Assembly (NCBI GenBank): GCA_030998225.1 | Contig: JAPYXD010000755.1 | Span: 1,116,001 to 1,180,000, forward strand | DNA from: Diplolepis rosae | Taxonomy: Eukaryota > Arthropoda > Insecta > Hymenoptera > Diplolepididae | Direction: 5' to 3' | Length of the DNA stretch: 64,000 nt | Translations under genes and position numbers: made by a program | Shown: piece after piece, positions 7,530 to 61,123 of the stretch | How the letters are laid out: the number at the start of each line of letters is the position of its first letter | How positions within the stretch are numbered: the stretch's first letter is position 1 | The notes under the pieces: model-generated | Seen by the model: only the letters and a program-made list of their open reading frames with translations | Databases searched by the model: none | Told to the model about the DNA's origin: nothing

Positions 7530-7566
7530 GTGAGAGGCAAGGGGACTCACAATAATCAAGCACCCC
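7530..7566 (+). other. Conserved 3' motif (candidate RNA pseudoknot), hAT copy
   Basis: Stem GTGAG, loop AGGCAAGGGGA, stem CTCAC, linker AATAATCAAGCA, then CCCC. The loop GGGG can pair with the trailing CCCC, giving an H-type pseudoknot. The same arrangement occurs at 18656-18694 and three times at 61001-61123, in unrelated transposons. Here it is outside the reading frame of the transposase. Recurrence is seen directly; the structure is inferred. Confidence 0.55.
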
Positions 7567-7802
7567 AAATCATCCCGAATTAATCAAACTTCTTCATTAT
7601 TTGATTTAAAACAAAACATTTTTGTTCGACGTATACTGGCATTTGATAGAGGCAAGCCTGAAGTACGGGCTACATTTGTAGCGTTTTTTACCACTTTGCT
7701 TCATGTTTTTCCTTTTTTCTTTTTGCTTGAAAGCAAAAACCCTTTTCGTTTCGTAGGATGTGGACTAGGCCTACAGGGGATACCACGTAAACAAACGAGC
7801 CT

Positions 7803-9809
7803 TAAACTCTACCTCCGTGGTGGTGTGGAAAGGAGTCTTATTTCAGAATATTTGGGATTCTCTAAGAATGAACCAGCTTTTTTATTTTAATATTTCAAAT
7901 GTGTTTTCTTTCTTTTATGTTTAAGGCAAAAACTAGATCTAAAAAAAGCAAAAAAACCTATTTCTCTAATTGCGTCCAAGATTAGAGCAGAATCTATGCA
8001 ACCGATTGTTAAAGGTTTTAAAAGTTTTCGCTTTAATTTAAAAAGCAAGTCTTCATAGTATTTTACTAAGTAATGAAAGTATGTCTACAATTGTTTTCTT
8101 GAATCCTACCCAAAGGTCAAACATGGTGCAAAAATGTCGTAAAATAAGAAAAATGTCTGAGTACTTTGAAGAAGTTTTTCTAAATCGATATGTATCATAT
8201 TCCAATAATATTTAGGGATATTTATTAAAATATTCATCTTCTAGATTTGTTTGATTAATGTACAGAGTACACTTTATATTTGAAATTTGTATACACTCTA
8301 AATCTGAATCAGTCAAATTTTCACTAATTGAATTAGTGATTTGCCTTTTCACTGAATCATCAGTGGAAACAATATTTTTCACTGTTAAATCAGTTACTTT
8401 TCACTGAAGTAATCAGTGAAATTTGACTGATTCACAGTAACCTGTTTTTAGTTATTTAAATCAGTCAAATTTCACTGATAATCAGTAGATTTTGACTGAT
8501 TCATATTTGAAATTTGTACAGTTTTTAAAAAAATCCGAAACTTTTTGAATTTAGTAGTTTATTTATAAAATTTGAGAATGTTGTAGTTGACATTTCTATA
8601 TAGAACTTTAAGCATTTATGGACATAAAATTTCATTTAAAGTTTCTTCTATCGATATTCAAAACTTTCAACAATTTTGCAAGATCAGTCAAATGCAAAAT
8701 TTGACACAGTATTTAATCAAAATATTTACATTTATTTTTTAAATATTTTGAAAATAATTCGACTAAAATAATGATTAATAAGATTTTGTAACATTGTGGG
8801 AATATTGGAACGCTGCAAGATTAAATTTTGAGTACAATTTTCAATTAATGAATGTTTAAAGAATTGAGTGAAAGAATCAATTAAAAAATATTTTTACTTT
8901 ATAAATTTGATTAAGTGCACTAATAAGAAAATTTTGACTTTCTATAAAGCATTTCATTTATCTGATTAAAAGTCTGTGCATACGTCACTAAAACGTAAGA
9001 TTAAAAAACTTTAAACTGCTTTTACCATCAATCTATGAATGTGGATTTTAAAGCGTAATTTAATGTCTTATTTTTTGTTGATAAAATATTTTTAACATAA
9101 TTTGTTGCTTAAAGTAGCCGATTTACTCGATTAAAAATTGATCAACTTGTATATTTCAAAATTCTGTAATAAAAGTATTTTCATATTATGTTTTTGTATC
9201 CTATGCGTAGAATTTTAATTTTAAAATTGAGATTTCTCACAAAGAAGAAAGATTGTCTTATTAAAGCAGTTTATTCCCAGAAATTAAAAATCATTTACTT
9301 AATATTTCGATTCCAAACATTGAATATTTATTGACTTTGAATAAAACAGAAAAAAAATTTTATGAAGTTTTAAAATCTTTTTACAATGTTACGAATTGGG
9401 CCGAATTTAGAATTACGAAATCTTTCATTAGAAAAAGAAAAAGTCACTCACATGAAATAAACTTCTGTAAGAATTATCAAGATTGAAGAGATGTTAAAAT
9501 ATTTGAAAAATAATGCAATTGTAAAATTGCAATTTATATGAATATTTGACAAATTTTTAGCTTTCTCAATCAAAGCATTATCCGGAAATTTTTAGTTCCT
9601 ATAAAAAGATGGAATATTTATCAATTTCTTGAATGTTCATACATTAAAAAAATATCGAATTAGAGAATTATATGCAAAGTATTTTCTATTAAGAAGACAT
9701 AAACATGACATAATTAGTTTTATATCTACATTTTCAGCTTACTTTTTTGTGGCTTAAGCACACATTTTGAATTCGAAATACAAAAATGCTCTACAGAGTT
9801 GAAGTATTT
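7803..9809 (-). repeat. Right arm of the 2-kb inverted repeat
   Basis: Reverse complement of 2288-4297, length 2007 against 2010. Differences are rare, for example a shortened A/T run near 9075. The mirrored motif block lies at about 8280-8515. No coding sequence. Confidence 0.9.
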
Positions 9810-9911
9810 TTTTCCAATAGAAGACACATTTGTGGATTTTAGCAGATTTTTTATGCATAATTCGCAATGCAAAAAATTGCGAACATTTATGCACGCAATT
9901 TTATTCATGTG

Positions 9912-10799
9912 TCATAAATAAATAATAATACTTCTTATATTAATGAATGAATTTACAATTGTAAAATATGCGAAAACATTAGATGCGTAACGTAAACAAG
10001 TTGTAAAGGGAAAGAGAGGAGTGAAAAACCATGAATGAACATAGTAAGGGTATTAGTTATTTTTGGAAGAGGAACTCCGTCTAACCGTGTTGTGTCAACA
10101 GACCTCCCAGACCTGTAGGCACGGGTAGAGGATTAAGCGGGGAGTCTGCCGCTACGGAAAGAAGGAAAATCGGAGAAACCAACGAGGAGTACTGCACTAG
10201 ATCTTTTTCCTAATATGGAAAATCTGACCACAGGAAGAGACGAGTTCAGCCACGCGCCAAACTATAGGCATGCATTGACGAAATAATTCTTGGAAAACGA
10301 GTCAACGGGTTCTTCGTGACTAATAATATCGACTACTAGAGGGGATTTTGACCCAGATGAGGGTCTATAAAACTAGCTGCTAATTGGGAAAAGTCAGTGT
10401 CTTCTTCAATCTTCGCCCGGCACTCCGCTTTCAACAAGTATCTCCAGTAGATCAGTTTTTCTTCAACCATCGTCCGGGAGTTCAGTATTCTTCAAACCTT
10501 CGTCATCAGTCAGTATTCTTCAACACGTCCTCAGTATTTTTCTTCACGTCCCATTGTTCAGTTGAGACAAACTTTATAACACTCCCCAAGTTTTCGTCAA
10601 GTATCGGAGCGTACCAGTCGCGAGTTTTCAACGTTTTGGATTGAATAAAGTTGATAATTGCAAAATATTTGAGTGATTATTTGTTGTTGGCTTCCCTCAC
10701 CCAGTTTCGGTTTAGAAATCCACTGGACTTCTTTACTGTTCTAAACGAGGAAAAACAAATTAAATAATATAATAAAGGGTGAGTAACCAAGACGTTACA
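9912..10799 (+). mobile_element. Solo LTR of the TGTCACGTCC family
   Basis: Starts TGTCATAAATAAATA and ends GACGTTACA. It aligns with the solo LTR at 22054-23224 except for a deletion of about 25 bp near its 5' end. Flanks are CATG (9908-9911) and TATG (10800-10803), against CATG at the empty site near 13270, so the TSD is 4 bp with one mutation. A TATA box (TATAAAA, 10366-10372) lies upstream of a CAGTGTC start-like site, and AATAAAG occurs near 10643. No internal retrotransposon sequence remains. The 4-bp TSD fits Ty3/Gypsy or BEL. Confidence 0.8.
10366..10372 (+). promoter_or_regulatory. TATA box of the solo LTR
   Basis: TATAAAA about 27 bases upstream of the conserved CAGTGTCTTC start-like site. 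The identical arrangement is found in the related LTR at 22526-22532. Confidence 0.6.
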
Positions 10800-10811
10800 T
10801 ATGTTTGATTT

Positions 10812-11060
10812 CACTGAGAAAAATGGATTATAAAATTTAATATCCAGGTCCAGTGACTATGGGACAGTTATTTAGATTATAAATACTATAATCTGGATTA
10901 TAAGAAGCATAATCCAGATCATAAGTGACATAACCTACAATTTATTCTCTATTCTAACATCATACCGCTTATAATCGAGATTATAGCTTCTATAATTCAA
11001 ATGGCTGTCCTATAGTCACTGTATCTAGATATTAAATTTTATAATCCATTTTTCTCCGTG
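10812..11060. mobile_element. Palindromic MITE with CACTGAG/CTCCGTG ends
   Basis: A 249-bp element. Its first and last halves are inverted repeats, starting CACTGAGAAAAATGG and ending CCATTTTTCTCCGTG. The interior is built of ATAATC(C/T) motifs in both orientations. Comparison with the empty site near 13260 (GATTTGCGC) shows a clean insertion with at most a TT duplication. No coding capacity. Confidence 0.8.
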
Positions 11061-11135
11061 TTGCGCGACCACTCTTTTGAATTATGCTATTCATTAGTTA
11101 CCTATCGGTAATCGTATTCTTGAATATTTTTCGAA

Positions 11136-11485
11136 TATACAGGTTTTGCCCGTTGGAAATTTGGTTTGTTCAGAAAATGTCCGTTTTCAAACAAAAGTGG
11201 TATACAAAAAGTAAAATTGGTTTTCCTACAAACTTACAGTTATAAACGAAGATAGCGATGATGACTAATTTAAAATTTAAAAAAAATTTTATGCTTGGCA
11301 AATGTTCAGCCTATTTATGGAGTATAAAGTGCTATTAAAATACAATTAATCGTCTATATTTGTAAAAAATCGATGGTAAATAAATGTAGTTTGTAGGAAA
11401 ACCAATTTTACATTTTATATACCACTTTTATTTAAAACGAACAGTTTTTGAACGGACTAAATTTTCCACGGGCAAAACTTTATAA
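11136..11485. mobile_element. Palindromic MITE with GTTTTGCCCGT TIRs
   Basis: The first 100 bp or so (GTTTTGCCCGTTGGAAATTT onward) return as reverse complement at 11388-11483 (ending ACGGGCAAAAC), with about 85% agreement by eye. The spacer of about 140 bp is non-coding. Confidence 0.7.
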
Positions 11486-12039
11486 AGAAATGTAACGAAA
11501 ATGTAAGTAATGCAATGCAAAATAACAGCTAAAAATTGTTTGCTATACAGAAATCCAAGTTAATTACTTATTTAATGTACGAGATTTTCTTATCATTTGT
11601 GTTTATTAAAATTTCAAGAACTAAACTAAATGGAGGACAATTCGAGGGTATTTTCGATGCCTTGTGTAAAAAAATGAGTATGTTATTTTTAACAAAGGGA
11701 AATGAATTTCACCTGTATATTCGGAAAATATTAAAGAATACGAAAAGATATTTTTCGCAACACTCTTTCGACTTGAAAATAATCACAGTCAACCATTTGT
11801 TTAGAATGCATATAAAAACTTCGCTTTTTCGCAACAAAAAAAAATTTACAAAATATTTTGTAAAATTTTTGCAACTTTCGTCAAAATTTTAGCAGTAAGC
11901 CCTGTTAGAGCTTGATTACCAACTAAATTTTTTTTTTTTCGTTAGTCTACTATTATTATAAAATGTGCTTTAATAGTAAAATGTTGGAAGAATGCATATT
12001 TCGAAGCTTTTTATTTTTTCTTATATCTGTCCACACCTT
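11486..12039. other. AT-rich segment, nothing recognised
   Basis: Interior of the 9.8-13.4 kb inverted repeat. A 118-codon open frame (11536-11892) is lysine- and phenylalanine-rich, as expected from AT-rich DNA, and shows no domain. Confidence 0.4.
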
Positions 12040-13180
12040 TGTCACGTCCCGTGACCGTCACTAATTATTTATTCATAATATAAAAATATTTAAAATTAAT
12101 AAAAGATTTTAACATAAAACATACATGAGCAATAGGCATTAAAAAGCATTGATTAGACGAAACTTTAATGTACGAAAATAAAATTGTAATAGAAAGAGAG
12201 ATAGTAGTGAACTTATAAATAGAAAACATCGTAAACTCTTGACTACCTGTTAACGAGGGAACCCCATCGGAATGTCCTAAGTACACATGAATATCGACAG
12301 GTGCCGCAAAGGATAGAAACTAAAAAATGAATCATCTCAAGAAGAAGGAACGTCGGGGAAACCAGAATAAGGAAACGAAGTTTCCCCTTTTTTCTTCAGT
12401 ACATAAAAAAATGGCAACCCAAAGGAAAAGAGGCCAGCTCAGACACGTGCCAAGGTCAGGCCAATATCAGAAGAATATTAGCAGGGCAAAATTAAACATA
12501 GCCAGTATCGACCGAAAATTAGCACATAAAAGTACCTGCGAATCTGCGAATCTTCAGTTGCCGCCGGGAAATCTTCAGAAACGGAACTCCTCTAAAAAGT
12601 ACAGAGTTGATGTCGGACCATCTTAAAATTTAAGAACTCTCTACCGAAGTTACCCCGGTCAACTCAGTCCATCTTTGTCAGTATCTTCCTCGTCAATTTA
12701 ACATTACATAGAAATTCAATTTAGTGGAACATTGTTCGTGAGTTAAAAAGTGGAACCTGTGAACGGTTCATATATTGAAGTGTCTACGATTTGATTACAC
12801 CGAGGTCCCACATCGTATATATTGACAGGTGCATCTTCAACTCACCCTTCGGGATCGTCACTAGTCCAGCCCGAAATAGATTTGTGGATTTAAGGCCCAC
12901 CTTGTCACAGTTTCCCTATTTGGATTTTGGTCTACCTGTCAGAATTTTAACGCATCGTAAAGTGAATTAGAAGGTGTGTACCCCTTCCGGATTATCAATG
13001 GTTCCAGCCTGGATCAAAATAAAGGTTAATAATTGTAAATTCAGTAAGTTTCGAGTTTCATTTTAGTTAGCTACCCTCATCCCAGTTTCGGTTTAGAAAT
13101 CCTCTGGATTTCTTTACCGATCTAAAACGAGGGAAAAATAAAATATATTATTAAAGGAAGGTAAGTGTCAGGACGTCACA
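12040..13180 (+). mobile_element. Solo LTR, second subfamily of the TGTCACGTCC family
   Basis: A 1141-bp unit from TGTCACGTCC to GACGTCACA with a perfect 4-bp TSD CCTT (12036-12039 and 13181-13184). The last 120 bp share CCAGTTTCGGTTTAGAAATC and the following hairpin with the LTRs at 9912-10799 and 22054-23224, but the middle differs. AATAAAG occurs near 13019. No internal retrotransposon sequence remains, so it is a solo LTR. Confidence 0.85.
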
Positions 13181-13375
13181 CCTTGAAAAAATCTACAAAA
13201 ATTCTGTTTTGATTATCGATAGGTAACTAATGAATAGCATAATTCAAAACAGTGGTCGCGCAAATCTAACATGAATAAAATTGCGTGCCAAAATTTTCGC
13301 AATTTATTGCATTGCGAATTATGCATAACAAAATTTGCAAAAATCCATGAGTGTGTCTTCTATTGGAAAAAATAA

Positions 13376-13921
13376 CCCTGATTTTTAAAAATATTTTTCA
13401 ATGTTTAGTTAAGCTTAAAATATCACGAAGAAAACAATTTTTTCATCAAAAAATCATAACTCGGAAAAAAAAATTTTTACCTGCTTAGTAGTTGAATTGA
13501 AACTCAAGGTCTCTTTTTGATGCGAAAAAAGTTTAAAAGAAAAAAAATACATTTTACGAGATATTGAACTTCAAAAAAAAACTGCAATTTTTGTTTATTG
13601 TTAAATAATAAATTAATAACAATCAACAAGCAATTGTTTATAACTGTATTCGGTAGTGCAAATTATTACAAACATTTAAAAGTGAAAATTGTTAAAGTCG
13701 GTCCATTTTTGACAAAGTTATAGACAATTGAAAAAAAAGTTCTCGCGAATAATTGCAAAAATCGATTTTGACCCCAAAAACAACATCATTATTTCAATCA
13801 AAGAGCAACATATTTGAGTTTCGTTGAAAAATAAATTCGTGTCCCGAATGGACCGGTTGAATTGAGATGGAAAGCATGCAAAGAATTTTAAATTGAAAAT
13901 GTAGTTGTGATTCGCCGTGAG
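13376..13921. other. AT-rich spacer, nothing recognised
   Basis: Runs of A and T with no long open frame and no repeat partner seen. Confidence 0.5.
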
Positions 13922-14125
13922 GGGTAAACCACTCTAAAATTATGATTTTAAAAATTAAAAATCAACGGCTAAGGAAAGAAATCACAAGTGTAGCTATACA
14001 CAACTCGCCGCGAAATGAAATAACGATGCGATAAGCGTCGAGTAAGAAACAATAGCATTCGTTCGCTTACTACAGCGTTCATATAACGATGAACGTTGTC
14101 TCGGTGATTTTAGAGTGGTTTACCC
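13922..14125. mobile_element. MITE with GGGTAAACCACTCTAAAAT TIRs
   Basis: About 19-bp TIRs: GGGTAAACCACTCTAAAAT at the left and ATTTTAGAGTGGTTTACCC at the right. The 12-bp flanks GATTCGCCGTGA (left) and GATTCTCCGTGA (right) match at 11 of 12 positions and may be a target duplication. The centre is GC-richer and non-coding. Confidence 0.75.
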
Positions 14126-14559
14126 TTCGATTCTCCGTGAAAGGATCCTATTTTTATTCCTGTATTTACATTTTAATATTTAATAAAATTACAAAGAATT
14201 GAAAAAATCGTCTCTAGATTTACGAAACTCGAATAAATTTGTAATAATTGCATTAAACTTTAATTGGCCAAAACGTGAAATTTTTTCTAATGCAAGTTTC
14301 ACGATTTTCCGATGCAAAAGTATGAGGATATTTGGTAATTTTCTCAAATTTTATTTTTATATTATAAAATAATATAGATAAATATAATACGTTGACCGTC
14401 AGTCACCGCTTTTGGAAAATTCCGGAAAGAAATTTTGATAGTGTAGGGCTAAAAAAGTAATGACTCAAAAATATTTTTCATAGTATCCAAAGCTAGAACT
14501 TGAAGGATTAGGCGGATTTAATTATAGAATTAACAATCCAGCCGTTAAACCTTTCATTG

Positions 14560-15145: not shown

Positions 15146-15632
15146 AAATTCTTTAGATCAGGCGACCCTCAATGTATGTCAGGCGACGCTCTTAATGTAT
15201 GTGTTTCTGGGCAGTGCCCATAATCTGTTACCTGTTAACTTTACTCTCACTACGGGGCTTCTCCCCACACAGTCGATCAATTGTCACCAGCTTCTGCCAG
15301 CGGGGGTTCTTTGTTCTCAATAGACATTTAATTAAGGCCATGGGCCATGCAGTTCACGTGGCAAAAATTATGTGTTAATTCGACCTGGTAAAATAACTTT
15401 TTTTTACATTTTCATCATGGATGAGAAGGTATTAGTTTTATTTTTAATACCATACGGAAAGAAATTAATAGTTGAACAAACAATATTTATCCCCGATTTC
15501 ACCGTTAATATCCTCAAAAACGAACAAAGGATATTGAGAATATAGTGAAAGCAATAATAAAGATTATATGACTATATATTTTAAGGGAATTCTATATAAA
15601 ATTCATGATTATATGTTTTATGGGGCAAAATT
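15146..15632. other. Spacer, nothing firmly recognised
   Basis: A short block around 15420 (CATCATGGATGAGAAGGTAT) also opens the repeat at 27468. No coding region supported. Confidence 0.4.
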
Positions 15633-16641
15633 CGTCAAGTGTACCTGCCTAAAAACTTTTGTCTCCGATTTCCTTAAAAGTTCGCGAAATTATTGTCCTA
15701 GTAAACCTCTTTTAATTCACTTAAGAGAACGTCTCTAGTACGACGGGTTGTCAGTATACAGGGACTTGAATTTTCAACCTTTTACCGCGCACGCTGATAC
15801 TCAATTAACCATAACTTCTACAAAAGCTACCCAAATTAATTTTTTTATGGAGGTCTTAGAAACGTTTTTTCATCAGCTTTACGCTGAAAGCAATGGTTTT
15901 AGATTTTGAACATTATTTGAGCTTCATTTTTTAATTTTAAACATATTTTTGAGTTTTTCTCCAAGTGCGGCCGTTGATTTTCTTTCCAAAATTATGTTTA
16001 AAAAAAAGCTTGATTTTTTCCCTTTAAAATGAGCCATGGTAGAAAGTGGGGCGAAAGAAATTGGTGGAGATGTATAAAACTCCTTGCGCGCGGCTTCTGC
16101 CTCGCGAGCGCCCATGCTTCAAATTCAGAATGTACGGTTTCTAGTCGACTACAAATAATCGACTACAATCTGCATTTTTTTAACCAAATAATTATTATCG
16201 TTATAAATTATTTCACGGATAATAATTCTTATTATTTATTGAACAAGTAAAATCCACTTTTATGTCGATACTTCATTTTTAAGACTTTAGAGAGAATTTG
16301 AAAAACCCGCCGAAAAAATTAGTACACATATTTGACCACTAGATGGAGGTCTTCGATACCTTTCTTGCAACAAAACTCATTGGCAGTTATTATAATTGCC
16401 AATTATTTTTCGATCAGAAATTGCTTTGATGCGATTTAACTTTGGCTTATTTCGACGTCATAATACTGCAGGTTTGAACTTTCCCGTACATTATTAATTC
16501 TCATTTACTTTTCTCATCATTCAGAATAGACATAGTATTACTTGAATACTATATTTCGAACACTTACCCACCTTCCGTGGTTGGACTCACATTGTTATTC
16601 AGTGCCCCAACTTAGCTTTTTCTTCTGCTTAATTTTCAATC

Positions 16642-18707
16642 ATGCCAAGAAGAACCAGCTTGGGTCGTCGTTGCTACAGTCCTTTTTCGAAGGAAAATCA
16701 TAAGCGTGATCCATGCAGTTTAAGAATAATTTCTGCAGCTCTTCAAAAAAAGTATCGCAGTATACTCATCGATGCGAAACTGTGTGTAAATTGCAGAAAA
16801 GAAATTTCTCAACTTGCATTGCTATCCTCTTTGTATTCTCATACTGATCCATCAATTGAAGATGCTTCAGTGATCAACGATAATTCACCTCCTATTCTCG
16901 AGAATGATATTTTAATGGAAGACGACGATATCTTTGCCGATCCTTCGACATCCAAGTTTGAAAAATCTAAAACTGATTGTTCTGATGAAAATCATTACGT
17001 CGGAATGGAGGTTCTTGAACAAATAAAAGAAAAATTTCAAAAATCTGCAAGTAATTCAGAAAAAGTGTTACTTTTAACTCTTGCTCCGAAATCTTGGGGC
17101 CACAGAAAATTGGCTAAAGAATTTGGTGCTTCTGAACGCCAAACTAGAAAGGCTAATAAATTAGTAGCTGAGAATGGTATTTTAACTTCTCCTAATTTAA
17201 AAAAAGGTAAAACTTTAGATTCCGAGATTGAAAATTTGGTCAAGCAAGTTTACCTTGATGATGAGAATAGTCGTATGATGCCTGGCATGAAAGATTTAGT
17301 TTCCGTAAAAAAGATGATGGCTCCCGTGAGCACGTTCAAAAAAAGTTAATTCTGTGCAATCTTTCTGAATTATATGCAAATTTTAAGGCTCAGCATCCTA
17401 CAGTTAAAATTTACTTATCAAAATTCTCTCAGCTTAGACCCCGAAATTGCATACTCGCTGGAGCCAGTGGTACGCATACTGTTCGTGTTTGTGTCCATCA
17501 TGAAAACGTTAATCTAATGCTAGATGCTGTAGATTTGAAAGAACCAACCTGCGAAAATTTTTCCCCCATTAAGACTTATCATGAAGCTATGAACAGGATT
17601 ATGTGTAGCGTTCCGACTTCAGAATGCTACTTGAATGAATGCACAGCGTGTCCTGGTACAAGCGCACTTAAGGAGTTTATAACATCAGTTCTCGCAGACC
17701 AGTGTATTAACAGAATAGAATTCCAGACTTGGCAACAAACTGACAGAAGTACGTTACGCACGGAAATAACAGACGCAGAAGATTTTGCTGAACAGATTTG
17801 CGAACGCTTGCTTAAGCTTAAACCTCACTCTTTTACAGCCAAACAACAGTCGTATTTCTTCAAAAGCCTTAAGGACACACTGAAAGAAGGAGAATTTCTT
17901 ATCCTTTGTGATTTCGCTGAAAACTATGCCTTTGTAGTCCAGAATGCAGCTCAGTCATTTCATTGGAACAATGATCAAGCTACCATTTTTACAGTGGTAA
18001 TTTATTATAAAGAGGACAACATTCTAAAGCACCGCAGTCTTGCTATGCTATTAGACTGTTTGACTCATGACACAATTGCTGTGTACAAATTTCAAAAAAT
18101 TATCACACACTATTTGAAAGAGAATTTTCAATCCAGAAAAATGATTTATTTTACAGATGGAGCCGCCCAGCACTTTAAAAATAAATATAACTTCATCAAT
18201 TTGCTCCACCATGAAATGGATTTTGGTATTCCAGCCGAGTGGCATTTCCATGCAACGGCGCACGGAAAAGGCCCTTGTGATGGTATTGGGGGAAATTTAA
18301 AAAGACTAGCAGCGCGAGCTAGCCTACAGGCGTCATATAAAGATCCGATTTTGACTGCTGATGCCTTGTATCAATGGGCAAAGAAAAATTTAGTTGAAAC
18401 TTTAGTATTCTTTAGTCCCAAAGAAAATAACGCCATCACAGCTCAAGAACTTAAGAGTAGATTTGCATCAGCAAACACAGTGCCTGGTACACGAAAGTAT
18501 CACTCTTTCGTCCCCTCTGCTGAATTAACTCTCATGTTGAGAAAATATTCGTCATCATTAGAATGTGATGTTTTTCCGAAAAAAAACTGCGAGGCAAAGA
18601 AGAAAGAGAAGTGCACATACACTGAAATAAGAAAATTATTTGACTCAATTTTCGATGTGAGAGGCGTGGGGACTCACACTAAAAAATCACCCCGAATTAC
18701 AAATTAA
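16642..18707 (+). pseudogene. Transposase of the AATT-TSD element, one frameshift
   Basis: The first frame runs from ATG 16642 to 17349, about 235 codons. The second, in another frame, opens well before 17400 and runs to 18707. Reading continuity shows one missing base near 17312-17316, after a run of A. The joined gene would encode about 690 residues. The N-terminal third is acidic and holds a helix-turn-helix-like block (SWGHRKLAKEFGASERQTRK). The C-terminal part has FTDGAAQHFKNKYNF near 18155 and EWHFHATAHGKGPCDGIGG near 18240, conserved-looking segments with Asp and His of a probable DDE/D core. I do not recognise the family by name with confidence. A single defect suggests a young copy. 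Confidence 0.75.
18656..18694 (+). other. Conserved 3' motif, copy in the AATT element
   Basis: Stem TGTGAG, loop AGGCGTGGGGA, stem CTCACA, linker CTAAAAAAT, then CACCCCG. The stem gains an outer T-A pair where the copy at 61086 has C-G, a compensatory change. The loop GGGG and trailing CCCC are kept. Here it overlaps the last codons of the transposase frame (reading DVRGVGTHTKKSPR), unlike the hAT copy. Confidence 0.55.
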
Positions 18708-19075
18708 TTTTTATTTTTAATTTCGTACCAGCCAAAAATAACAGTTTTACTAACAAATTATACAAAGTACAATTAAATAAGTTCCCAATGGACGGTACGT
18801 CGTGATCGTGGCGCCTAGCTGCACTGCGACATGAAAAAATGTTTCTAAGACCTCCATAAAAAAATTAATTTGGATAATTTTTGTAGAAGTTATGGTTAAT
18901 TGAGTATCAGCGTGCGCGGTAAAAGGTTGAAAATTCGAGACCCTGTATACTGACAACCCGTCGTACTAGAGACGTTCTCTTAGGGGAATTAAAAGAGGTT
19001 CACTAGGACAATAATTTCGCGGACTTTCAAGGAAATCGGAGACAAAAGTTTTTAGGCAGGTACACTTCACGAATT

Positions 19076-30246: not shown

Positions 30247-30978
30247 AAGGGTGATATGTCTTGAAATTGAAAAAAAACACTGAATATTCATTCGGAATTG
30301 ATCGAAATCTTTTTTATTATATTGGATATTCTATGCCATTTATGATTTAAACAATATATCGGCCAAATGTCCCCCGAGACTTGAGCCAAAAATGCGCCTC
30401 ATCAGAAAAGATGATTTTTTGATGAAAATTGGGATCATTTTCAATTGATTCCAGAGCCCAATCCGCGAACTCCCGACGCAAACGATGGTCATTAGGCTTC
30501 AGTTCTTGGGCCAGAATCATCTTATAGGGATGCAGGCCAAGATCCAATCGCAAAATACGCCAGGTAGTCATCCTGGACAGGCCCAATTCCTGAGATCGGC
30601 GTGGCACGGACAATTCACGGTTTTCCTCGATACTGGCGTGTACGGCGGCTATATTCTGTGTAGAACGTGCGGTACGCATACGATTTTTAGGCTTAGTATC
30701 CAATAGAGTAAATTCACTCTCCAACTTATCGATTATTCGACGAATTGAGAGCGCGGATGGAGCAGAATGACGACCATATTTTGCACGATATGCTCTTTGA
30801 ACACCGACAAAACTTCTCGAATTTTGATAAAATAATTGGACAATTTCCAAACGTTGTGGAAGCGTGAAACTACTCATGATTAAATGGCAAACCTTGCTGA
30901 TGACAACTGACAGCAGAAGTCAAAAATTTCAGTTCAAATGAGCCCGATAGGGACATTCAAAATCATATCACCCCTATT
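30247..30978 (-). mobile_element. Internally deleted IS630/Tc1-mariner-type transposon
   Basis: TIRs AGGGTGATATG at the low end and GGGGTGATATG (read in reverse) at the high end, flanked by TA on both sides, as expected for this superfamily. Only the 5' half of the transposase remains, so the copy cannot move by itself. Confidence 0.8.
30347..30877 (-). pseudogene. N-terminal half of an IS630-type transposase
   Basis: A 176-codon frame from ATG at 30877. An N-terminal helix-turn-helix region of the DUF4817 type (MSSFTLPQRLEIVQLFYQN) is followed by a second DNA-binding region and LHPYKMILAQELKPNDH. The first catalytic Asp lies in FSDEAHFW. The frame ends soon after it, at a deletion junction, and the second and third catalytic residues are missing. 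Known full-length relatives have about 340 residues. The ends could still be mobilised in trans. Confidence 0.85.
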
Positions 30979-47607: not shown

Positions 47608-48621
47608 ACTGTATACATTTATTATAGCGGTACTCAATCTTCTTTATGCCTTCTAAGAAGTAATTTTTATCGAACCTCTCAAAATACTCGTTTGTCGCAG
47701 CAATGATCTCTTCGTTCGATGGAAATCTTTTACCTCCAAGCCAAGTTATGTTAGGAAACAAAGAATAATCGGAAGGAGCCAAATCTGGGGAATAAGGTAG
47801 ATGAGGAAGTATTTCGTAGCGTTAATCAAATAATTTGGCCGTTGCAATGGCACTCGTGTGAGCTGGTGCATTGTCGTGGTGGAAAAGCACTTTTTTCGTT
47901 AGATGGGGCCGTTTTTCCTTCAGTATGGCATCAAATCGATCTAATAATGAGGCATAATACTCTCGTGTAATAGTTCCTCGCTTCTGTAGAGAATCGATTA
48001 ATATTATACCATGTGAGTCCCAAAAAATTGTGGCCATGACCTTACCGGCTAATGGAACCGCCTTCGCTTTTTCGACGCAGATTCACCAGGCTCAGTCCAC
48101 ATTTTCGACTGATTTTTTGTTTCTGGCGTATAATAATGAATCCACGTTTCATCAACAGTTACGTAACGTCATAAAAATTCCTTTGATTTACGTTGAAACA
48201 TGCCCAGACATTGCTCTGACGCAACCACACGAGCCCGCTTGTGATCGGCTGTGAGCAAACGCGGCTCCCGTCTTGCAGACAGCTTCCTCATGCCCAAACA
48301 TTCATGTAAAATGTGCCATACGCGTTCCACTAAAACGTTTACAGTCTCACTAATCTCACGCACTTTCAATCGACGATCGTTGAGTACGATTTCGTGGATT
48401 TTATCGATCATTTCTTCAGAAGTCATCTCTTTTGGACGGCCAGGACGCTCAGCATCACTTGTGCTAATACAGCCGCAACGAAATTCAATGAACCACTTAT
48501 GAACCATGCCATGCGATGGAGCAGACTCCTTATAATATTTTGCGAGATTTTCTTCAGTTTCTTTGATTGATTTTCCTCGTAGAAAATTTTTAATAAGCAC
48601 GTGAAACTCGCTTTTTTCCAT
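47608..48621 (-). pseudogene. Mariner transposase 2 with two stops and a frameshift
   Basis: From ATG 48621 the N-terminal helix-turn-helix region is open to a TGA at 48169. VDETWIHYYTPETK (first Asp) follows. A one-base loss near 48062 shifts frame to MATIFWDSHGIIL. HHDNAPAHTS carries the second Asp, a TAA stands at 47822, and SPDLAPSDYS gives the third Asp (34 residues apart, DD34D). The C-terminus is cut at 47605 by the MULE; the last few codons (GDYVEK, then stop) lie beyond it at about 45830-45850. Confidence 0.88.
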
Positions 48622-53150: not shown

Positions 53151-53500
53151 TCCCTTTTTCCCAGGTTTCCCATTGTAATCGGTTCCTTTGATGGTGCAGG
53201 TATGTCTCGGCTCTTGATTGCCCTTCTGCAAAACCTCAATTCCATTGAGAAATATTTGGAAGTTGAGCCGGGATAGTATGCCCATCCCGAGCAGGACGCC
53301 TGGACTCAGGCTAGGCAGTTCCATGCATTCGGCCTGGATACTCTGGTTGGCAGAGATAATTATACCGGTGTGTTTTCCACCTAGATCAACGGATATCCTG
53401 TCAGCCATGACGGCTCTCGGCGGAATCGTTAGGCGTTTTTCTTGTCAACATATGACCAGACGGATCCAGGATCAACGAGTACGGTCGTCCATTGTTGCCC
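53148..53500 (-). pseudogene. Gypsy aspartic protease
   Basis: The active-site region reads LVDPGS (about 53485-53470), where retroviral-type proteases have D-T/S-G, so the second residue is changed. A one-base gain shortly after shifts the frame to MADRISVDLGGKHTGIII and GVLLGMGILSRLNFQIF (the flap-to-ILG region of the fold). Probably inactive. Confidence 0.8.
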
Positions 53501-54480
53501 TAGCTTTATTTTGATGAACAGCCTTGGGTCGGTACTGCTGGTCTCTCAGACCGGGCTGCGGGTTGTGTTGGCCCGGTCTGTTTGCGTTTCCCAATTTCAG
53601 GCACTTGCAATCCCAGGTCAGGATATTGTCCTTGCCGCACCAAGAACAAAACATCTTGGGTGGATTGCGGCAGTTGAACCGATTGTGTCCCCGCTGTCCA
53701 CACTTCCAGCAGCATTCCTCCCTTACAAATGCTGCTTGAAGGGGTGAGCTGGCCGGCTGGTTTTTCTACGGCTCTAGTTTCCGTCTGGGCTTCTCGGGGC
53801 ATTTGCGCCTGGACCTCCTCGATTTCCTGAACTCGCTGGATGAGTTCTTCCAGGGTTGAGGCCTCTCTTGGCCGCATAAGCAACCGCAGCCAAGGCTTTG
53901 TATTCTGATAGAGGGTTTCCATGATCCATTCATGGTTAAAACCTTCTCGTCGTCGCATAAGGGTGAATAGCGATGACGCCTAGCTGCGCATTGCCTCCCT
54001 GGACTCCTGCCGTCGAGCACTGATCTGTTGGTCCAAGTGTCTCTTTGCCCCGGCGATAGGTAAAAGTTTCTTAGGTCTTGTTCTGAATCCTCCCAGGTGG
54101 TTATGAGAAGCCCCGCAGCAGCAGCTAGTCGGTCATCTGGTTGGATTTTTGTAATTCGCGCACCCGCTCGAGGAATTGATAGACGCCTCTGCCGTCAAAA
54201 TGACAGTTCCATTTCCCCATTTGATCGAGGGTATGGGCCGTTGATTGCCTGTTCGAAGGCAGATCATTGTCTTCGCGGACCATCGCTTGATAGCTTGTGC
54301 CTGGCGAGCAGTTCACATAGCATCCCGGGTGTGGTATACGTCGCTCGAGGGTGGAGCCTACTGAAGAGCTACGAGGTTGCTCCTCTTCTGGATTGAGAGC
54401 AATCACCTCTTTTCGAGTGGATGAGGCCACTAAAATCTCTCTTAATTCGTTTAATTCGGCACTATCCGCTGTCTTATCAC
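53501..54480 (-). pseudogene. Gypsy gag with zinc knuckles
   Basis: Gag core pieces MGKWNCHFDGRGVYQFLERV (about 54220) and, in another frame, HEWIMETLYQNTKPWLR are followed by EASTLEELIQRVQEIEEVQ, a short coiled-coil-like stretch. A CCHC knuckle (CWKCGQRGHNRFNC, about 53735-53695) and a second, defective one (CSWCGKDNILTWDC, no His) complete the nucleocapsid-like end. Frame changes near 53960 and 53700 break the gene. Confidence 0.82.
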
Positions 54481-54613
54481 CGCCAGAGAGCCGCTAGTGT
54501 TTAGCTCATATTTTTCGAGCACCTGGATAAGCTGTTCTTTTGTAAGGTGGTAAAGCCGACTCCCAGCCCGTGTCGAAGGCCGACCATAGGAGCACCTATT
54601 CGTCAACCCCCGG

Positions 54614-54626
54614 CGCGGTCCCACCA
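54614..54626 (-). promoter_or_regulatory. Primer-binding site of the Gypsy element
   Basis: TGGTGGGACCGCG on the minus strand is complementary to a tRNA 3' end closing in ...GGTCCCACCA. It lies about 6 bases past the LTR end. The tRNA species was not identified. Confidence 0.65.
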
Positions 54627-54632
54627 TTTACC

Positions 54633-54895
54633 TGGAAGGTCGGTGTCAGGGATTCTCTCCTATGGGAGAACCCATGCAGAGAGCGTCTCCTAGCCGCTCG
54701 TCCAGGGCGCCGCTCCGGTGTGATCCGGGCCGCCGCCCAAGGCGAAGTACTCTTCTCGGCTCTCCGGCCTTCCCTTTATAGCTGACCGCGAGTGGTGGGA
54801 GAAGGCCGAGAGTAGTGGGGGACGCTGCGCGCACTTATCGGTATTACTGGTGGGGGTAACGTGACTGAGTATACAGTAGTGTACAGTCCGTCACA
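54633..54895 (-). mobile_element. 5' LTR of the Gypsy element
   Basis: Starts TGTGACGGACTG at 54895. A TATA box (TATAAAGGGA) lies at 54780 and the end is near ATCCCTGACA or CTTCCA (54644 or 54633). No second LTR is in the window, so the ends rest on the TG...CA rule and the primer-binding site. Confidence 0.7.
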
Positions 54896-54896
54896 C

Positions 54897-55512
54897 AGCA
54901 ATAGATGGCGCTAAGCGTATATTTAAAAATTTTTAATATTATTTTAGACACAGAAAAATATTCACAACAAGGATAAACGAATATGGAAATTATTAAAAAT
55001 TAGGATATCCTGATGTTATTTCGAAGGTCTTGGCATTCTAATAATTAATCCTGGATGTTATAAGAATGACGCGACATTTGAAACATCATTAGGGTATCCC
55101 AACCAAACTTCCTCGTGGAAGGTGTATTTTTAAGACTTGGACTACCAGGATTAATTTTAAAAGCGACGAGACATTTGGAACATCATCAGGGTGTCATGAA
55201 TTTTAGTATGTAAAACATCTTCCTCGAGGAAAGTATATTTTCAACAATTGGACAACCAGGATTATTATAATAATGCTAAGACCTTCGAAATATCATCTGG
55301 GCATCCTAAATTGTATTTCTCAATTCGACTTCATCTGGAAATATGTATTTTCAATATCTGGACCACCAGGACTACTTTCTAAAGTAAAAAATTTCAAAAA
55401 ACCATGATTTCAAAATAATTTCCATATTTATTTATCCTTGCTGTAGATATTTTTCTGTATCTAAAATAATATTTAAAATTTTTTAAATATACGCCTAGCG
55501 CCATCTATTGCT
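54897..55512. mobile_element. MITE with AGCAATAGATGGCGCTA TIRs and internal tandem repeats
   Basis: The terminal 95 bp or so are inverted repeats (AGCAATAGATGGCGCTAAG...; ...CTAGCGCCATCTATTGCT). The middle holds three imperfect units of about 97-110 bp with ACATCAT(T/C)AGGGT, TTCCTCG(T/A)GGAA and GGACTACCAGGATTA. No coding sequence. It touches the Gypsy LTR. Confidence 0.85.
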
Positions 55513-58029
55513 TCATTCCATAGAATAGCTGCTTTCGTTTACCGACCTTCACACTATTTCAAAGCTACTCTTCACTTTTTATACTCTACTTGCATGTATG
55601 CTCTGAAATTAGCGTTCATCTGACAACATTTTTTTCTGTATAATTCGAGTTCTAGCTATCAATCCCCTACCCTAAACTTCTTCCAAGCAACCAATTTTGC
55701 AGGCTGATTTTTTTGTCATATCTCGCATAGCGTGGATAAAAATATATATATTTTTTTGATCAAAACGAAAAATACAAATCTTATAGAAAAACGTTTAAAT
55801 CGAAACTTTTCGATCTTTTTTGAAAGAACAATTTTGCATTATAACTTTTCTCGTATATCGCATGTTTTTACCGGAAAAAGAAAATATCATAATGGTGCGA
55901 ATTGAATAGTAGTATTAAAAAATTGATCCTCTGAATAGTATAAGAACATATAAAATTATATAGACAATTTTGTATAGCATTTTTTTTTTTAATAACAACG
56001 TATAACTTTTTACATATGCCGTCTTAGAATAGTCAATTAATTTTATATGTCATACTATAAAGAGGCACGATTGTAGTTGACCATTCTTAAATATACTTCA
56101 TATAACCTTTTAATGTTTTCACGAATACATTTTTACATTTGAAATAAACCTATAGTGTGGTCGGAAAATATAGGTGTATCAACTTTAAAATGTTTACACA
56201 AGTTTAATTTTTCCAAATATCAGTCTTTAAAACGCCTTCCTACCGAAAAGTTTTAGTACAATCGAATTCATAGTTACAAAATAATTATTGATATTTAAAG
56301 TCTTTACCGTCTGAATGTCTCGCGCGTGGACTATACGTATGGTATACTGAAAGACTTTTCGTTAGAGTTAATGATAAAATAGAATTAAAATTCAGTATAA
56401 TATTGTTTTATAATGAGTAAAGCTGAGGTTTTAGTACACTTATTCATATTATGACATCGAAATTCAATATAGTCCTAACAAAGTCTTTAAAAGATGTAGA
56501 AGACAAATTAATATTATGAATTTCCATTAGAATAATTAAGTGTACGAAAAAATGATATTATGATTACTAAATTCTCTACAAATAATTTTAATACGTCGAA
56601 CAATGAATATTAATTTGCTAGAAACCTGGCGAAGCGCAGCAAAAAACGAAAATTCATTTTCGGTTTTTCATATAATTCGTTTCAGAATGTCGTTCGAGTG
56701 CTTCCGTCGTTTTCTGATTGGCTTCGTAGACTCAAACCAAGTCTGTTCAACTCAGTAGTAGCGTTAAGTTCCAGCCCTTGCGGGGAAAGACGCCAGGGGT
56801 AGGTTAAGTTCCAAAATCCAACATGGGGATCGACACTTTTGAAAGTCACAAAAATCTCATGGATAAGAAGTAAGTTGTAGGAGTGAGGCCCAAACTTGTG
56901 TTTTTGAGTCTGCTGTATCCATGATAGGGGATTTTACAACACAGCTTTTTCCCTCTTTTCTTCCTACTTCGCTCTTTACTGGTCTTTTCCTGAGATCAGA
57001 TATGTATTTTTTCAAAGTAAAGATATTCAAAAAGAACCATGTTTGGAAATTAACAATTTGTTTTTAAATTTATTGCATATTTATTGACAATATATTTTCA
57101 ATATTCTTTCATTATCTTGATTACAATAATGAAGACATAGTGAAAAAATAAATAATTTATAAATGATAATATTTTGAAAGTTTAATATTCATACAATATA
57201 ATTTTCGTTTATATAGTAAGGTAATAAAGTCAATATTATTCATTGATATATAATAATTTCTCTATATAATAATATAATAATAATCCGTATACATTTTTTG
57301 AGACAAAAAAATGTTAATGTATATAGTATTATATTGCCTTTAAGGTCATAAAATTAATAATGATATATGCATTACTTATTGATAGTCAATGTAACTCCTA
57401 ATTTGAATATTCAAAAAAATATTAATTTGAAATTATGAAACTTCTCTAATATAGTTATTATACGCCTAGTACACATACACTGAGAAACATTTTGTTAGAG
57501 TAAATCATATAATATTGTTTTTAAATGCACGGAGAAAAATGGGTTTCAAAATCTTCGATTTCACTGCTATCATTTCGGACTTCATTCCCAAACGAGTCTA
57601 TCTTTTCAGATTCAGGATGAGAATTCAATAAATGATTCAGATGCAAGCTTTATGATTGGGGGTCAAGTGAACAGGGTATATCAGTAGGCACTCCTACAAT
57701 CTGTCCGGTCGAGTCTAGTACTTAGTCCTATACCAAATTATAAGGTGTTAACGGGCGAATAAAGTATCATTGCCCACGGAAAAGACAGCTACAACTAATA
57801 TATTTTAGCAATGTATAAACTTTTCGAACAAAGTAATTACCATAAATTGAATTGCAAAAGATTCTGTATCAAATCGATCTTTATATTAAAATTGTACACG
57901 GAAAAAACAAGTTCTATGAAGTTTAGGGAACTAGTTCTGGATTAGATGATACAACGGATAGTGGAATAAAAATTAATGCTGTCTGTTATAGGATATAATG
58001 ATATAATGTATGGAAATTTGATGTGATAT
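55513..58029. other. AT-rich spacer with one dispersed repeat
   Basis: 56424-56590 recurs at 62629-62800 in direct orientation (GAGGTTTTA(G/T)TACACTTATTCA; GAAAAAATGATATTATGATT). A GC-richer block at 56620-56840 has no recognised gene. CACTGAGAAAC at 57478 and CACGGAGAAAAATGG at 57534 resemble single ends of the MITE family at 10812. Confidence 0.5.
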
Positions 58030-59250
58030 TGTTACGTCCCGAGCAAAAGGCGAGGGTAGTTTGGATTTTTGGATGTAAGGGAGGCGGTTAGCTGATTATA
58101 TCAGGTTGGTAAGGCCTGATAACTCATTTTTGTTTGTGGGTACGTTGTCACTTGTCAGGTCTATGGACCCTGAGTTGTTCACAATGATAATAAAACACTG
58201 AATATATAAATAAATGAAATAATTTATTATAAATAAATAAGATTTTGCGCAAGTTTTCACACAAGATGATACTTAGGTGGTAACTTACTTGTCTATCTCT
58301 TAATTTAGAGGGCAAAAGAGAGAATTGTCGTTTTTTACTCCTATAATTGCAAGTCAACGGCACAAATCCTTGCAGGATAGTTGGGTTTCGTTTGAGTCTC
58401 TGTGAAGTAGCAAAACAACAATAAATCTTGCAGGAGGTATGATGTAAGGGATGCAAGTTCACCAGCAACTGATGTGATCAATTATCCGCTTACGTATCTT
58501 GCTAAGTACACGAGAAATGAATCAAACCTGCACTTGTTAACAAGATAGGTTAGTTCGTCCCGATTTCAGAAATGAATCACTATTAACCGACACGATTAAA
58601 TACGACGATACACGTAACCCAGAGGAACTATCTAGCACTACGGTTTCCGGACTTGCACCACTTAAGGACCAAGGATTTTATTTACCAAGTGCCGAATGTA
58701 GAATTGCTCATAGAAATCCACTTGAGACTTACGTTTATCGAAGGGTCTGCTCACGACGTTGAATTACCGGTCCGAACCTAATAACCGTACAACGGCTCGG
58801 TACTTAATGACAAACCACCAGAGATAAATCTTGGGGTATATATATTATTGATGCTTCTATTAGTGGGTGCAGATAAACGTAAATCGGTGGCACGGCACGT
58901 TCGAATCGCAAATCGGTGGCAAGGCACGCTCGAATCGCAAATCGGTGGCAAAGCACGTACGAATTGCGAATCGGTGGCCAGGCACGATCTCTGCAAGAGT
59001 TCATGGGTTCATCTCTTCTATTGCCCAATTTTATATCTAGTTTCCAAATAAATGCATTTTTAATTACTTATTTCTGCATTTATTTGTCTATGGTTTATAT
59101 TACTTATTTTACTAAGTATGATCATTAATTTCTTGCCAATGATCAGTCAATCAATTCTTTATTTATGATCCATAATCAATAATCGATTTTCATTCATTGA
59201 TCATGATCGACTTATCGGCAATCAATACATAGGGGCGCTAATATTGATCA
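58030..59250 (+). other. Possible solo LTR starting TGTTACGTCC
   Basis: TGTTACGTCCCGAGC at 58030 resembles the start of the TGTCACGTCC LTRs, and a TATATATA-like box occurs near 58842. I could not find the closing end or a TSD, so the right limit is arbitrary. The 106-codon minus-strand frame (58468-58148) shows no domain. Confidence 0.3.
58886..58986 (+). repeat. 29-bp minisatellite, about 3.5 units
   Basis: Units begin GGTGGCA(C/A)GGCACG and end GAATCGCAAATC, period 29 bp. GC-rich against an AT-rich background, just after the TATA-like box at 58842. Confidence 0.9.
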
Positions 59251-59908
59251 ATACTATTTTACTACCCAAGATATTAATGATAGTTGTGATATAATATTAA
59301 TATAATATTTCCTCAGGTAAAATATTTTTCAAAAAAGTGAAGGCCATTCCTGAAGTAAATTCCAACGAGGAATTCAATGGTGACCTTCATTTTGACCTTG
59401 AAGTTGACCTTCATGGCTTTTTCAAGGTCAACTTTGTTTTTGTTTAAAATGGAAACTCCCTTTTTTTACATCTGCAATCGATAGAGCGGAAAATTCTACG
59501 TTCAAGTACGTACTTAAGTCATAGGTCAATTGTAACGTTCAAGGTCAATTAGAGGTTATTTGAAATTAAAAAAGTTTTACAAGAGGTAAGTGTAATTCCT
59601 GAAGTAAATTTCAACGAGAAATTCATTGGTGAGCTCTGTATTGATCTTGGTTACAGCGTTTTGAATATTGTAAAATCATATGCATAGGAAATTTTTCATT
59701 AAAAGTTCCAGGAGTTCTGGTGAGAGTTCTGTTCCTACCCAAAGAGTTATATCGAAAAGTCCTATACCGTTTTTCAATACCTAAGTCAATACCTAAGGAG
59801 ATACCATTAGTCCTATACCGTTTTTCTATCTCCATACGAATATTACGAATCGAAACTAAATTTACGTATTACGAGTACATACTTACTATCTTTCGCTAAA
59901 AGATTATT

Positions 59909-60998
59909 ATGGCGCAAGCTAAACTTTCGGAACGAGAGAGGGTATCTGTATTAATGATGCGTGGTTGAGGAGATCGAGTTCAATCTTATGATCAAGTTCG
60001 TGTGCTTTTTAATCGCACTTTTCGTAATGGAGAAGGGTTAAATTCTGTCTCAAAATCAACAATTGAAAGAACTGTAAGGCGCTTTATGAATCATGGATCT
60101 ATCAAGGACCTTCAGAGAACTGGTCGGCAGAAATTTGCAGGATCTGAGGAGATGCAGATGGACATAGCCCAAGAATTTGCTGAAAACCCACACCTTAGTT
60201 TACGTCCAGCTAGTGGTGAGCGTCACGTTGCTCCTGAGACAGTGCGAAATATTTTAAAAAGCATTAGTTTCCATCCTTACAAAGTTCATCTTGTACAAGA
60301 GCTCAGTGAAGACGATCCTGATCGTCGGGTTGAATTTTGTGAAATTATGATGGACAGAATTGATAGAGATCCTCTTTTCTTGTACAATACAGTATTTTCA
60401 GATGAAGCTACTTTCACTTTAAAAGGTGAAGTTAATAGGCAAAATCGTAGATATTGGTCCGACACAAATCCTAATTGGATGCTGGAGAGTCACACACAAT
60501 ATCCACAAAAGATTAATGTTTGGGCCGGTATCTTGAATGATACATTGATAGGCCCTTTCTTCATCGATGGTAATCTCAATGATTGTGCATATTAAGAGCT
60601 TCTCAGAAACCAAATAGTACCACGAATAAGGGAGATTACAGGCGATAATTTTCATAATATTTGGTTCCAGCAGGAACGGAGCAGCGTCTCATTACGGTAG
60701 GGAGGTTCGAGCATATTTGGATACTCAGTTCCCTCATAGGTGGATTGGAAGAAGGGGTGAAATCGAGTGGTCAGCTAGATCTCCTGATCTGACGCCACTC
60801 GACTATTTTCTTTGGGGTTATTTAAAGAGCAAAGTATACTTAACGCAACCCCAAAGCTTAGACGAATTGCAGAATCGGATTCTGCAAGAGGCTACTTTGA
60901 TTTATAGGGAGATGATTCGTAATGCTGTAATTCATTTTTACAATCGCATAGCTTTTTGTCAAGAAGCTCAAGGTTTTCAGTTCGAACATCTTCACTGA
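59909..60998 (+). pseudogene. DD41D (rosa-like) IS630/mariner transposase, three defects
   Basis: From ATG 59909 the N-terminus MAQAKLSERERVSVLMMRG meets TGA at 59966, probably a former Trp codon. Two helix-turn-helix regions follow (STIERTVRRFMNHG; VAPETVRNILK). The first catalytic Asp is in FSDEATF. A TAA at 60594 and a one-base gain near 60678, within the codon of the second Asp (QQ-D), break the frame. SPDLTPLDYF carries the third Asp, 41 residues after the second, matching the DD41D group. Stop TGA at 60996. Length of about 363 codons fits full size. Confidence 0.87.
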
Positions 60999-61000
60999 AA

Positions 61001-61123
61001 CGCGAGAGGCAAGGGGACTCATGCTAATCAAGCATCTCCGAAACGTGAGAGGCAAGGGGACTCTCGTTAATCAAGCACCCCGAAACGTGAGAGGCAAGGG
61101 GACTCACGATAATCAAGCACCTC
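61001..61123 (+). other. Conserved 3' motif, three tandem copies
   Basis: Copies at 61001-61038, 61044-61081 and 61086-61123, period 42-43 bp, start two bases after the transposase stop. Each has G(T/C)GAG, AGGCAAGGGGA, CTC(A/T), AATCAAGCA and a C-rich end. Copy 3 has a full 6-bp stem (CGTGAG/CTCACG); copy 2 has the complete GGGG/CCCC pair. In the transposase frame copy 1 would read NARGKGTHANQAS after the stop. Confidence 0.65.

Follow-up and report, generated by a model that had tools for sequence, protein, structure and literature searches.

A pseudoknot-like sequence module shared by three unrelated transposase groups in the wasp Diplolepis rosae

We have analyzed a stretch of 64,000 nucleotides (nt) from the genome of the wasp Diplolepis rosae (contig JAPYXD010000755.1, positions 1,116,001 to 1,180,000; called the window here), in which one short motif accompanies three DNA transposons with unrelated transposases: a hAT element, an element referred to here as the AATT element, and a Tc1/mariner-like element of the DD41D type. 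The motif itself, its strand, its position, the range of families that carry it and the occurrence of such arrays in another wasp are direct observations. We propose, and consider the chances about even, that it acts in cis as an RNA element of transposase messenger RNAs (mRNAs), which would be read by a host factor and would aid export or stability.

The motif and its copies in the window

The motif is a module of 37 nt, made up of a stem GTGAG/CTCAC that encloses a loop AGGC[A/G/T]A, a GGGG tract and a single A, followed by an A-rich linker of 8-12 nt and a CCCC tract. With minor changes, the plus-strand consensus of the five window copies is GTGAG-AGGCAA-GGGG-A-CTCAC-linker-CCCC, an arrangement that could possibly fold as an H-type pseudoknot. 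A search of the window with GAGAGGCAAGGGGACTC, allowing up to three mismatches, returned five matches; shuffled sequences averaged 0.04, and none of 100 shuffles reached five. The five copies are beyond chance. An earlier note on this DNA (the original prediction) had claimed five copies of one motif shared by three unrelated transposons; all five were recovered where it had placed them, on the plus strand, and the motif is indeed common to the hAT, AATT and DD41D groups. The copies are as follows.

7530..7566, plus strand: copy 3' of the hAT gene (stem 1 7530-7534/7546-7550, GGGG 7541-7544, linker 7551-7562, CCCC 7563-7566)
18657..18693, plus strand: copy at the end of the AATT-element open reading frame (ORF) (stem 1 18657-18661/18673-18677, GGGG 18668-18671, linker 18678-18689, CCCC 18690-18693)
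61002..61038, plus strand: array copy 1 behind the DD41D gene, with imperfect stems (GCGAG/CTCAT, GGGG/TCTC)
61045..61081, plus strand: array copy 2 behind the DD41D gene (GTGAG/CTCTC, GGGG/CCCC)
61087..61123, plus strand: array copy 3 behind the DD41D gene (GTGAG/CTCAC, GGGG/CCTC)

The DD41D copies form a tandem array with spacings of 43 and then 42 nt. In all three host elements the motif has the transposase gene on its left and the right arm on its other side; in the AATT element it overlaps the end of the ORF. The hAT ORF ends at 7327, leaving a gap of about 200 nt before the motif, and the DD41D stop codon occupies 60996-60998, with the first array copy starting 3 nt later. The stem sequence GTGAG resembles a splice donor.

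Genome-wide occurrence and strand

The exact core GAGNGGCNNGGGGACTC gave 893 + 876 matches in the 757.7-Mb genome, and a pattern that avoids the three commonest core forms gave 99 + 77; the control for each (the reversed pattern in the case of the exact core) gave none. The stretches examined were 30 loci of 3 kb, 20 of 6 kb, 80 of 0.5-0.7 kb (mainly from the rare-form pattern, the first 100 of its matches) and four of 5.2 kb. Together with the window this sample holds 306 copies in 118 sites, a count from which loci L131-L134 and one chance minus-strand match in the window (307 with it) are left out.

Strand was assessed by tblastn with the hAT, AATT and DD41D proteins at loci outside the window, using transposase fragments no more than 1.5 kb away. 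Of 45 locus-strand groups that could be classed, all 45 have the motif on the same strand as the transposase, downstream of the gene in 39 and upstream in six, so that its predicted tie to transposase genes held up; these groups are not all independent, as two loci (L025 and L026) are the two ends of one element and others are members of the same family. The sense groups span hAT-1 (the family of the window gene), hAT-2, AATT-1, AATT-2, DD41D-1 and two diverged DD41D relatives. No location in a host gene was demonstrated among the sites classed, which are a subset of the 1769 matches to the exact core. One hAT-2 element, covered by two overlapping loci, has two copies before its ORF and three after it, all in the sense direction. 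A 2.2-kb element with 330-nt inverted repeats and no detected gene (L132) carries a seven-unit array just inside its right arm.

Copy number per locus ranges from 1 to 12. Most tandem units in Tc1/mariner arrays measure 42 or 40 nt and those of hAT-2 measure 95-100 nt, a difference which marks the knot as the constant part. These spacings also bear on the suggestion that the motif is involved in stop readthrough or is translated, as a peptide of the form VRG-x-GTH. Some arrays do have an open frame of 14 codons and the AATT ORF does overlap the motif, but 45 of the 188 array intervals shorter than 130 nt are of 40 or 41 nt, linkers shift the frame, the hAT copy lies far behind its stop codon, and those relatives of the AATT protein that were listed (120 of 530) end before the motif. 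We regard a coding or recoding role as highly improbable, and the short peptide VRG-K/V-GTH of the original prediction is not upheld.

Conservation of the core and divergence of the flanks

Twenty representatives, which were picked by hand and are related, were compared over the core and over fixed flanks of 58 nt. Mean core identity is 0.98 within hAT (10 pairs), 0.95 within AATT (1 pair), 0.96 within Tc1/mariner (78 pairs) and 0.96 between groups (101 pairs). The corresponding upstream/downstream flank identities are 0.54/0.54, 0.63/0.50, 0.52/0.53 and 0.48/0.47, compared with 0.53, 0.53, 0.49 and 0.48 for shuffled upstream flanks. Thus the core aligns between groups and the flanks do not, and the case that the original prediction had named as fatal to it, in which all copies are one longer repeat inserted three times, is rejected.

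Local BLAST of flanks of 175-180 nt found no match between those of hAT-1 and those of any other family. Between superfamilies the sole flank match is one of 35 nt (L055 with L067). Single-linkage clustering by flanks reduced the 118 sites to 10 clusters, with 112 sites in four large clusters and six sites alone; its merger of DD41D-like with AATT families depends solely on that 35-nt match. The transposases themselves are well diverged: hAT-1 and hAT-2 are about 60-65% identical (45% in one stretch), AATT-1 and AATT-2 are 47% identical over 397 residues (41-51% in others), and DD41D-1 is mostly 35-45% identical to its relative at L046 and 51-59% to that at L036. To judge from these alignments, the motif has been preserved within each group for longer than much of the sequence around it, and it recurs from group to group.

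Looser searches produced few further forms, which lessens the worry that core identity is an effect of retrieval. Another A-T pair in stem 1 gave one match, which was compensated, and another first loop base gave 27 matches, which are single-letter variants or have loops 1-2 nt shorter. When the search was anchored in the flanks and the motif left free, hAT-1 yielded 492 copies with an insert of 30-50 nt and two shorter ones, both partial deletions, and AATT-1 yielded 143 with the insert and none with a shorter one. The first 100 matches listed for each of these two families all carry the motif, intact or recognisably broken. No clean empty site was found for hAT-1, AATT-1 or DD41D-1 with exact flank patterns, which miss older copies.

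These results can be set against the view that the motif is a passenger, a tandem-prone minisatellite passed among transposons by recombination and without function. Such a repeat would account for loci with anything from one to a dozen copies and for the neutral decay of copies described below. It does not readily account for the single copies of hAT-1 and AATT-1, which have almost never been lost, nor for a motif that is kept between families of one superfamily despite unlike linkers and is always in the sense direction, and we think this explanation unlikely.

Pairing and possible structure

Crossing stems together with an A-rich third loop constitute the geometry of an H-type pseudoknot. 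The motif is predicted to have two crossing helices with spanning loops of sufficient length, the linkers being 8-12 nt long. Counted as sequence compatibility only, all five pairs of stem 1 can form in 18 of the 20 representatives and all four pairs of stem 2 in 18 of 20. The linker varies in letters and in length while GGGG/CCCC, or a wobble variant of it, is kept, so that the design fits a pseudoknot, as originally proposed. On the sense strand the linkers are 60% A and 12% T, against 36% and 30% in the flanks; the A:T counts are 36:6 in hAT, 16:2 in AATT and 86:20 in Tc1/mariner, with about 864:720 in the flanks.

An extra outer pair can be added to stem 1. It is T18656-A18678 in the AATT copy and C61086-G61108 in the third DD41D copy, as had been noted when a pairing-preserving change was first claimed; the hAT copy, which that claim passed over, has an unpaired A7529-A7551 at this position. 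Among the representatives, 14 of 20 can pair at the outer position, as C-G, G-C, T-A, A-T or wobble, against a mean of 9.6 for shuffles (P about 0.02); counting Watson-Crick pairs only, the number is 10 of 20 against a mean of 5.8 (P 0.03). This covariation is weak, as the representatives are related and hand-picked, and pairing-preserving change extends to the outer pair and not to the five core pairs or to stem 2.

A proposed role as an RNA signal

The element that we envisage is a compact H-type pseudoknot with a stem 1 of 5-6 pairs, a GGGG/CCCC stem 2 and an A-rich third loop, in which the sequence of stem 1 and loop 1 is fixed. We infer that it would be transcribed with the transposase gene, fold, be bound by a factor and so take effect. 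A host RNA-binding factor would read the fixed letters of stem 1 and loop 1; a reader protein is suggested because the stem letters are invariant, which is more than a bare structure would call for. The likeliest effect would be to keep transposase mRNA in use, through nuclear export or protection from decay, and tandem copies could confer higher avidity.

An RNA element acting on transposase mRNA, one of the roles offered by the original prediction, is the best reading because all classifiable groups are sense, because the copies before and after the gene of one hAT-2 element point the same way, and because the linker is rich in A when read on the sense strand; the absence of covariation in the core stems is its weak point. 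Copies in one direction around the hAT-2 ORF are unlike the end sites of a transposase, which would be expected to be inverted. The points of strand, of hAT-2 layout and of unit length favour an RNA role, and do not prove it.

A number of results weigh against this interpretation. The sites were retrieved by exact core patterns, and core identity is therefore partly by construction. Local BLAST shows that flank similarity does exist within superfamilies, some of it local: AATT-1 and AATT-2 match upstream, in coding sequence, DD41D matches other Tc1/mariner families downstream, and the flanks of hAT-2 match hAT-3 and the L096 family, in part via motif copies. A looser search in which two other stem pairs were changed together gave three matches, all broken. 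The outer pair is unpaired in six of the 20 representatives and frequently so over the 306 copies (C-A 58, G-G 28), and neither the five stem-1 pairs nor stem 2 covary beyond chance. Of the 306 copies, 138 owe none of their letters in question to the retrieval pattern, and a decay test was confined to these; in the case of stem 2 it used the 117 of them whose linker is the usual one. Wobble-keeping and pair-breaking transitions number 36 and 33 in stem 2 (117 copies); in stem 1 they number 36 and 28 at G-C pairs, and 9 and 19 at T-A pairs. Double changes to A-T (3 and 4) equal the computed chance expectation. Plain folding of three of the window motifs, by a program that does not admit pseudoknots, is no better than that of shuffles (z 0.00, 0.16 and -0.77). 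Lastly, a non-autonomous-looking hAT-3 copy with no detected gene (L010) still has the motif, which is neutral or favours a role in DNA.

An apparent preservation of wobble pairs in stem 2 over all copies (88 vs 39) was rejected as an artefact of the retrieval pattern, since it is gone once the fixed copies are removed. Most copies are probably dead and a neutral pattern is hence to be expected, which is no evidence either way on structure in active elements.

The gene-less hAT-3 copy is also among the points that speak for a site acting in DNA, where a host protein would bind the duplex motif and help the transposition or expression of its carriers. Fixed letters, weak covariation and a position near the right inverted repeat would all suit such a site. 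The constant sense orientation and the hAT-2 copies that point the same way on both sides of the gene would not, and neither the complementarity of GGGG and CCCC nor a linker that is A-rich on one strand has an evident meaning in duplex DNA. We therefore hold a DNA-level site to be rather unlikely.

The wider picture, which we put forward tentatively and with less than even confidence, would be of a modular RNA pseudoknot that is common to, and has been exchanged among, wasp DNA transposons with three or more unrelated kinds of transposase. By means of it they would hijack one and the same host RNA factor; such a public helper signal for cut-and-paste elements would have a role like that of the ENE (see below) and a new design. 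If the motif does act in RNA, unrelated DNA transposons would depend on one host factor via one 37-nt module, a host dependency common to many elements. The module would then be a starting point for studying the export of transposase mRNA in insects, or its escape from decay, and would imply that different superfamilies can have components outside the transposase in common.

Comparison with known RNA elements

Rfam 15 gave no window match at the gathering threshold, and none at E up to 5 for 60980-61160. On 10 loci it gave three matches, all below gathering and outside the motifs; one of these, to MIR7533 at L048:3993-4226 (82 bits, gathering 230), lies outside the motif array and is probably a fold-back repeat.

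The ENE (element for nuclear expression) is a short RNA structure of the 3' untranslated region (UTR), linked to transposons, that is reported to raise the RNA stability and mobility of Evade (PMC12501189). Its U-rich tracts pair with the poly(A) tail and are flanked by G-C pairs. The wasp motif is likewise short, linked to transposons and mostly 3' of the gene, but it occurs in DNA transposons and has another design. Identity with the ENE is rejected, since just one of 306 copies has five consecutive T within the knot. The musD RNA transport element (MTE) belongs to a retrotransposon RNA and contains a pseudoknot; its tertiary contacts are reported to be essential for export (PMC5767303). It is larger and confined to one long terminal repeat (LTR) retrotransposon; it is likened to the wasp motif by description alone, and export is for the latter only proposed. 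The ENE illustrates that a 3' UTR structure can raise the stability and mobility of transposon RNA, and the MTE that a pseudoknotted element can serve export.

Small structured elements are also known from viruses. The xrRNA-D of plant viruses is described as often in the 3' UTR and as having a pseudoknot (PMC6299227), and the coremin motif as likewise small, structured and often in the 3' UTR (PMC10520033). The wasp motif could similarly be a roadblock that halts exonucleases, as viral xrRNAs do, and, where copies separate the gene from the ends of the transcript, protects the coding part or leaves stable fragments; a small knotted UTR element, in tandem copies and on both sides of the hAT-2 gene, is in keeping with this. 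However, GTTGCAAG, taken as the loop L2B string of xrRNA-D, is in none of 306 copies vs five of five published sequences, and the GTCCGAAGAC hairpin and TTAAACTAC spacer of coremin are likewise in 0/306; both identities are rejected. The wasp motif has no evident second helix like P2, and it lacks the stem covariation reported for xrRNA-D (PMC6299227). A roadblock also leaves the fixed stem letters unexplained, and we judge it improbable.

Structured RNA signals in transposon transcripts are a known kind of element; what appears to be new is the module itself, the elements that carry it and its occurrence in more than one transposase group. The core letters were not found in the text of 5.39 million open-licence papers, and no pseudoknot or xrRNA linked to DNA-transposon transcripts was among the open-licence literature matches listed.

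Occurrence outside this genome

A unit of 42 nt equals 14 codons, and one antisense frame of the arrays reads VSPLASHxSGCLI. A profile of five antisense translations, scored on 7995 candidates sharing most words, matched 27 proteins at E up to 0.01, and many of these display a 14-residue repeat. Four of the 27 (P0131, P0132, P0133 and P0142) are annotated as from the pteromalid wasp Trichomalopsis sarcophagae. A second round gave 22 proteins, five of them new. Judged by these translations, arrays of the same kind exist outside this genome, for example in T. sarcophagae; some other profile matches, which are close to the DD41D flank here, may come from the same or a near species. Viral contigs and prokaryote genomes held no motif match (one 26-nt phage match with E 0.4 was disregarded), and a source in either is rejected. 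Relatives of the AATT and hAT proteins were likewise not found in viral contigs.

The host elements

The genes and arms of the three host elements in the window are as follows.

2288..4297, plus strand: left arm of the inverted repeat that surrounds the hAT gene (2.0 kb; the two arms are 99.3% identical)
5099..7327, plus strand: hAT transposase ORF (hAT-1), 742 residues, PF05699
7803..9809, minus strand: right arm of the 2.0-kb inverted repeat around the hAT gene, pairing with 2288..4297
15629..15873, plus strand: left copy of the 245-nt inverted repeat in the AATT element
16642..17349, plus strand: AATT-element ORF 1, 235 residues, no Pfam family above cut-off
17517..18707, plus strand: AATT-element ORF 2, 396 residues, Cc8L18.2-like, no Pfam family above cut-off; its final codons overlap the motif
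18831..19075, minus strand: right inverted repeat of the AATT element
59305..59649, plus strand: left copy of the inverted repeat in the DD41D element (345 nt)
60002..60998, plus strand: DD41D transposase gene, interrupted here (longest ORF 60002-60595)
61229..61571, minus strand: right inverted repeat of the DD41D element

The DD41D spacing, 41 residues between the second and third catalytic D, was seen in the relative at L005. The element has 345-nt inverted repeats and a length of 2.27 kb, vs more than 460 bp and more than 2.3 kb for DD41D Tc1/mariner elements with long terminal inverted repeats (LTIRs). Among the latter, the aphid LTIR DD40-41D elements Apismar5.1 and 5.2 are described as about 2.3 kb long with long inverted repeats (PMC5490172); the window element resembles them in DD41D spacing, in length and in having long inverted repeats, and differs in that its repeats are 345 nt vs about 460. 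Neither a knot nor an array 3' of the gene is mentioned in the available parts of that paper or of a paper on bees (PMC8472432). Two other Tc1/mariner-like fragment ORFs in the window (30347-30877 and 48169-48621, by eye) have no motif copy nearby, and thus the superfamily does not carry the motif throughout in this genome. Downstream of the DD41D array lies CCACGTCGTTGTTCCTGGGTAATGCT (window 61147-61172), altered versions of which stand behind arrays of other Tc1/mariner-like families (for example L059, L073 and L083); its antisense reads QRRGRG, which precedes the repeat in proteins from other sources. Loci L096 and L124 belong to yet another family, whose motifs have a 9-nt linker and follow one another at about 95 nt, and in L124 a mariner-like element is apparently inserted in the second motif copy (by eye).

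The protein of AATT ORF 2 has 530 relatives, those named among the 120 listed being from ants, wasps, a moth and a starfish; it belongs to a transposase-like group without a curated model in the Pfam library. The C-terminal dimerisation region of hAT-1 is present (Dimer_Tnp_hAT, PF05699, 3e-07, 30.6 bits vs a cut-off of 21.4). The 2.0-kb arms around this gene are possibly very long element ends or two inverted element copies. An imperfect hairpin of 59 nt (7330-7388 with 7472-7530, 76% complementary) runs up to the start of the hAT motif. Further downstream, GTGGACTAGGCCTACAGGGGATACCAC (window 7760-7786; L010:1590-1616), which has complementary ends, is kept in hAT-1 and hAT-3, whose 3' regions are otherwise dissimilar.

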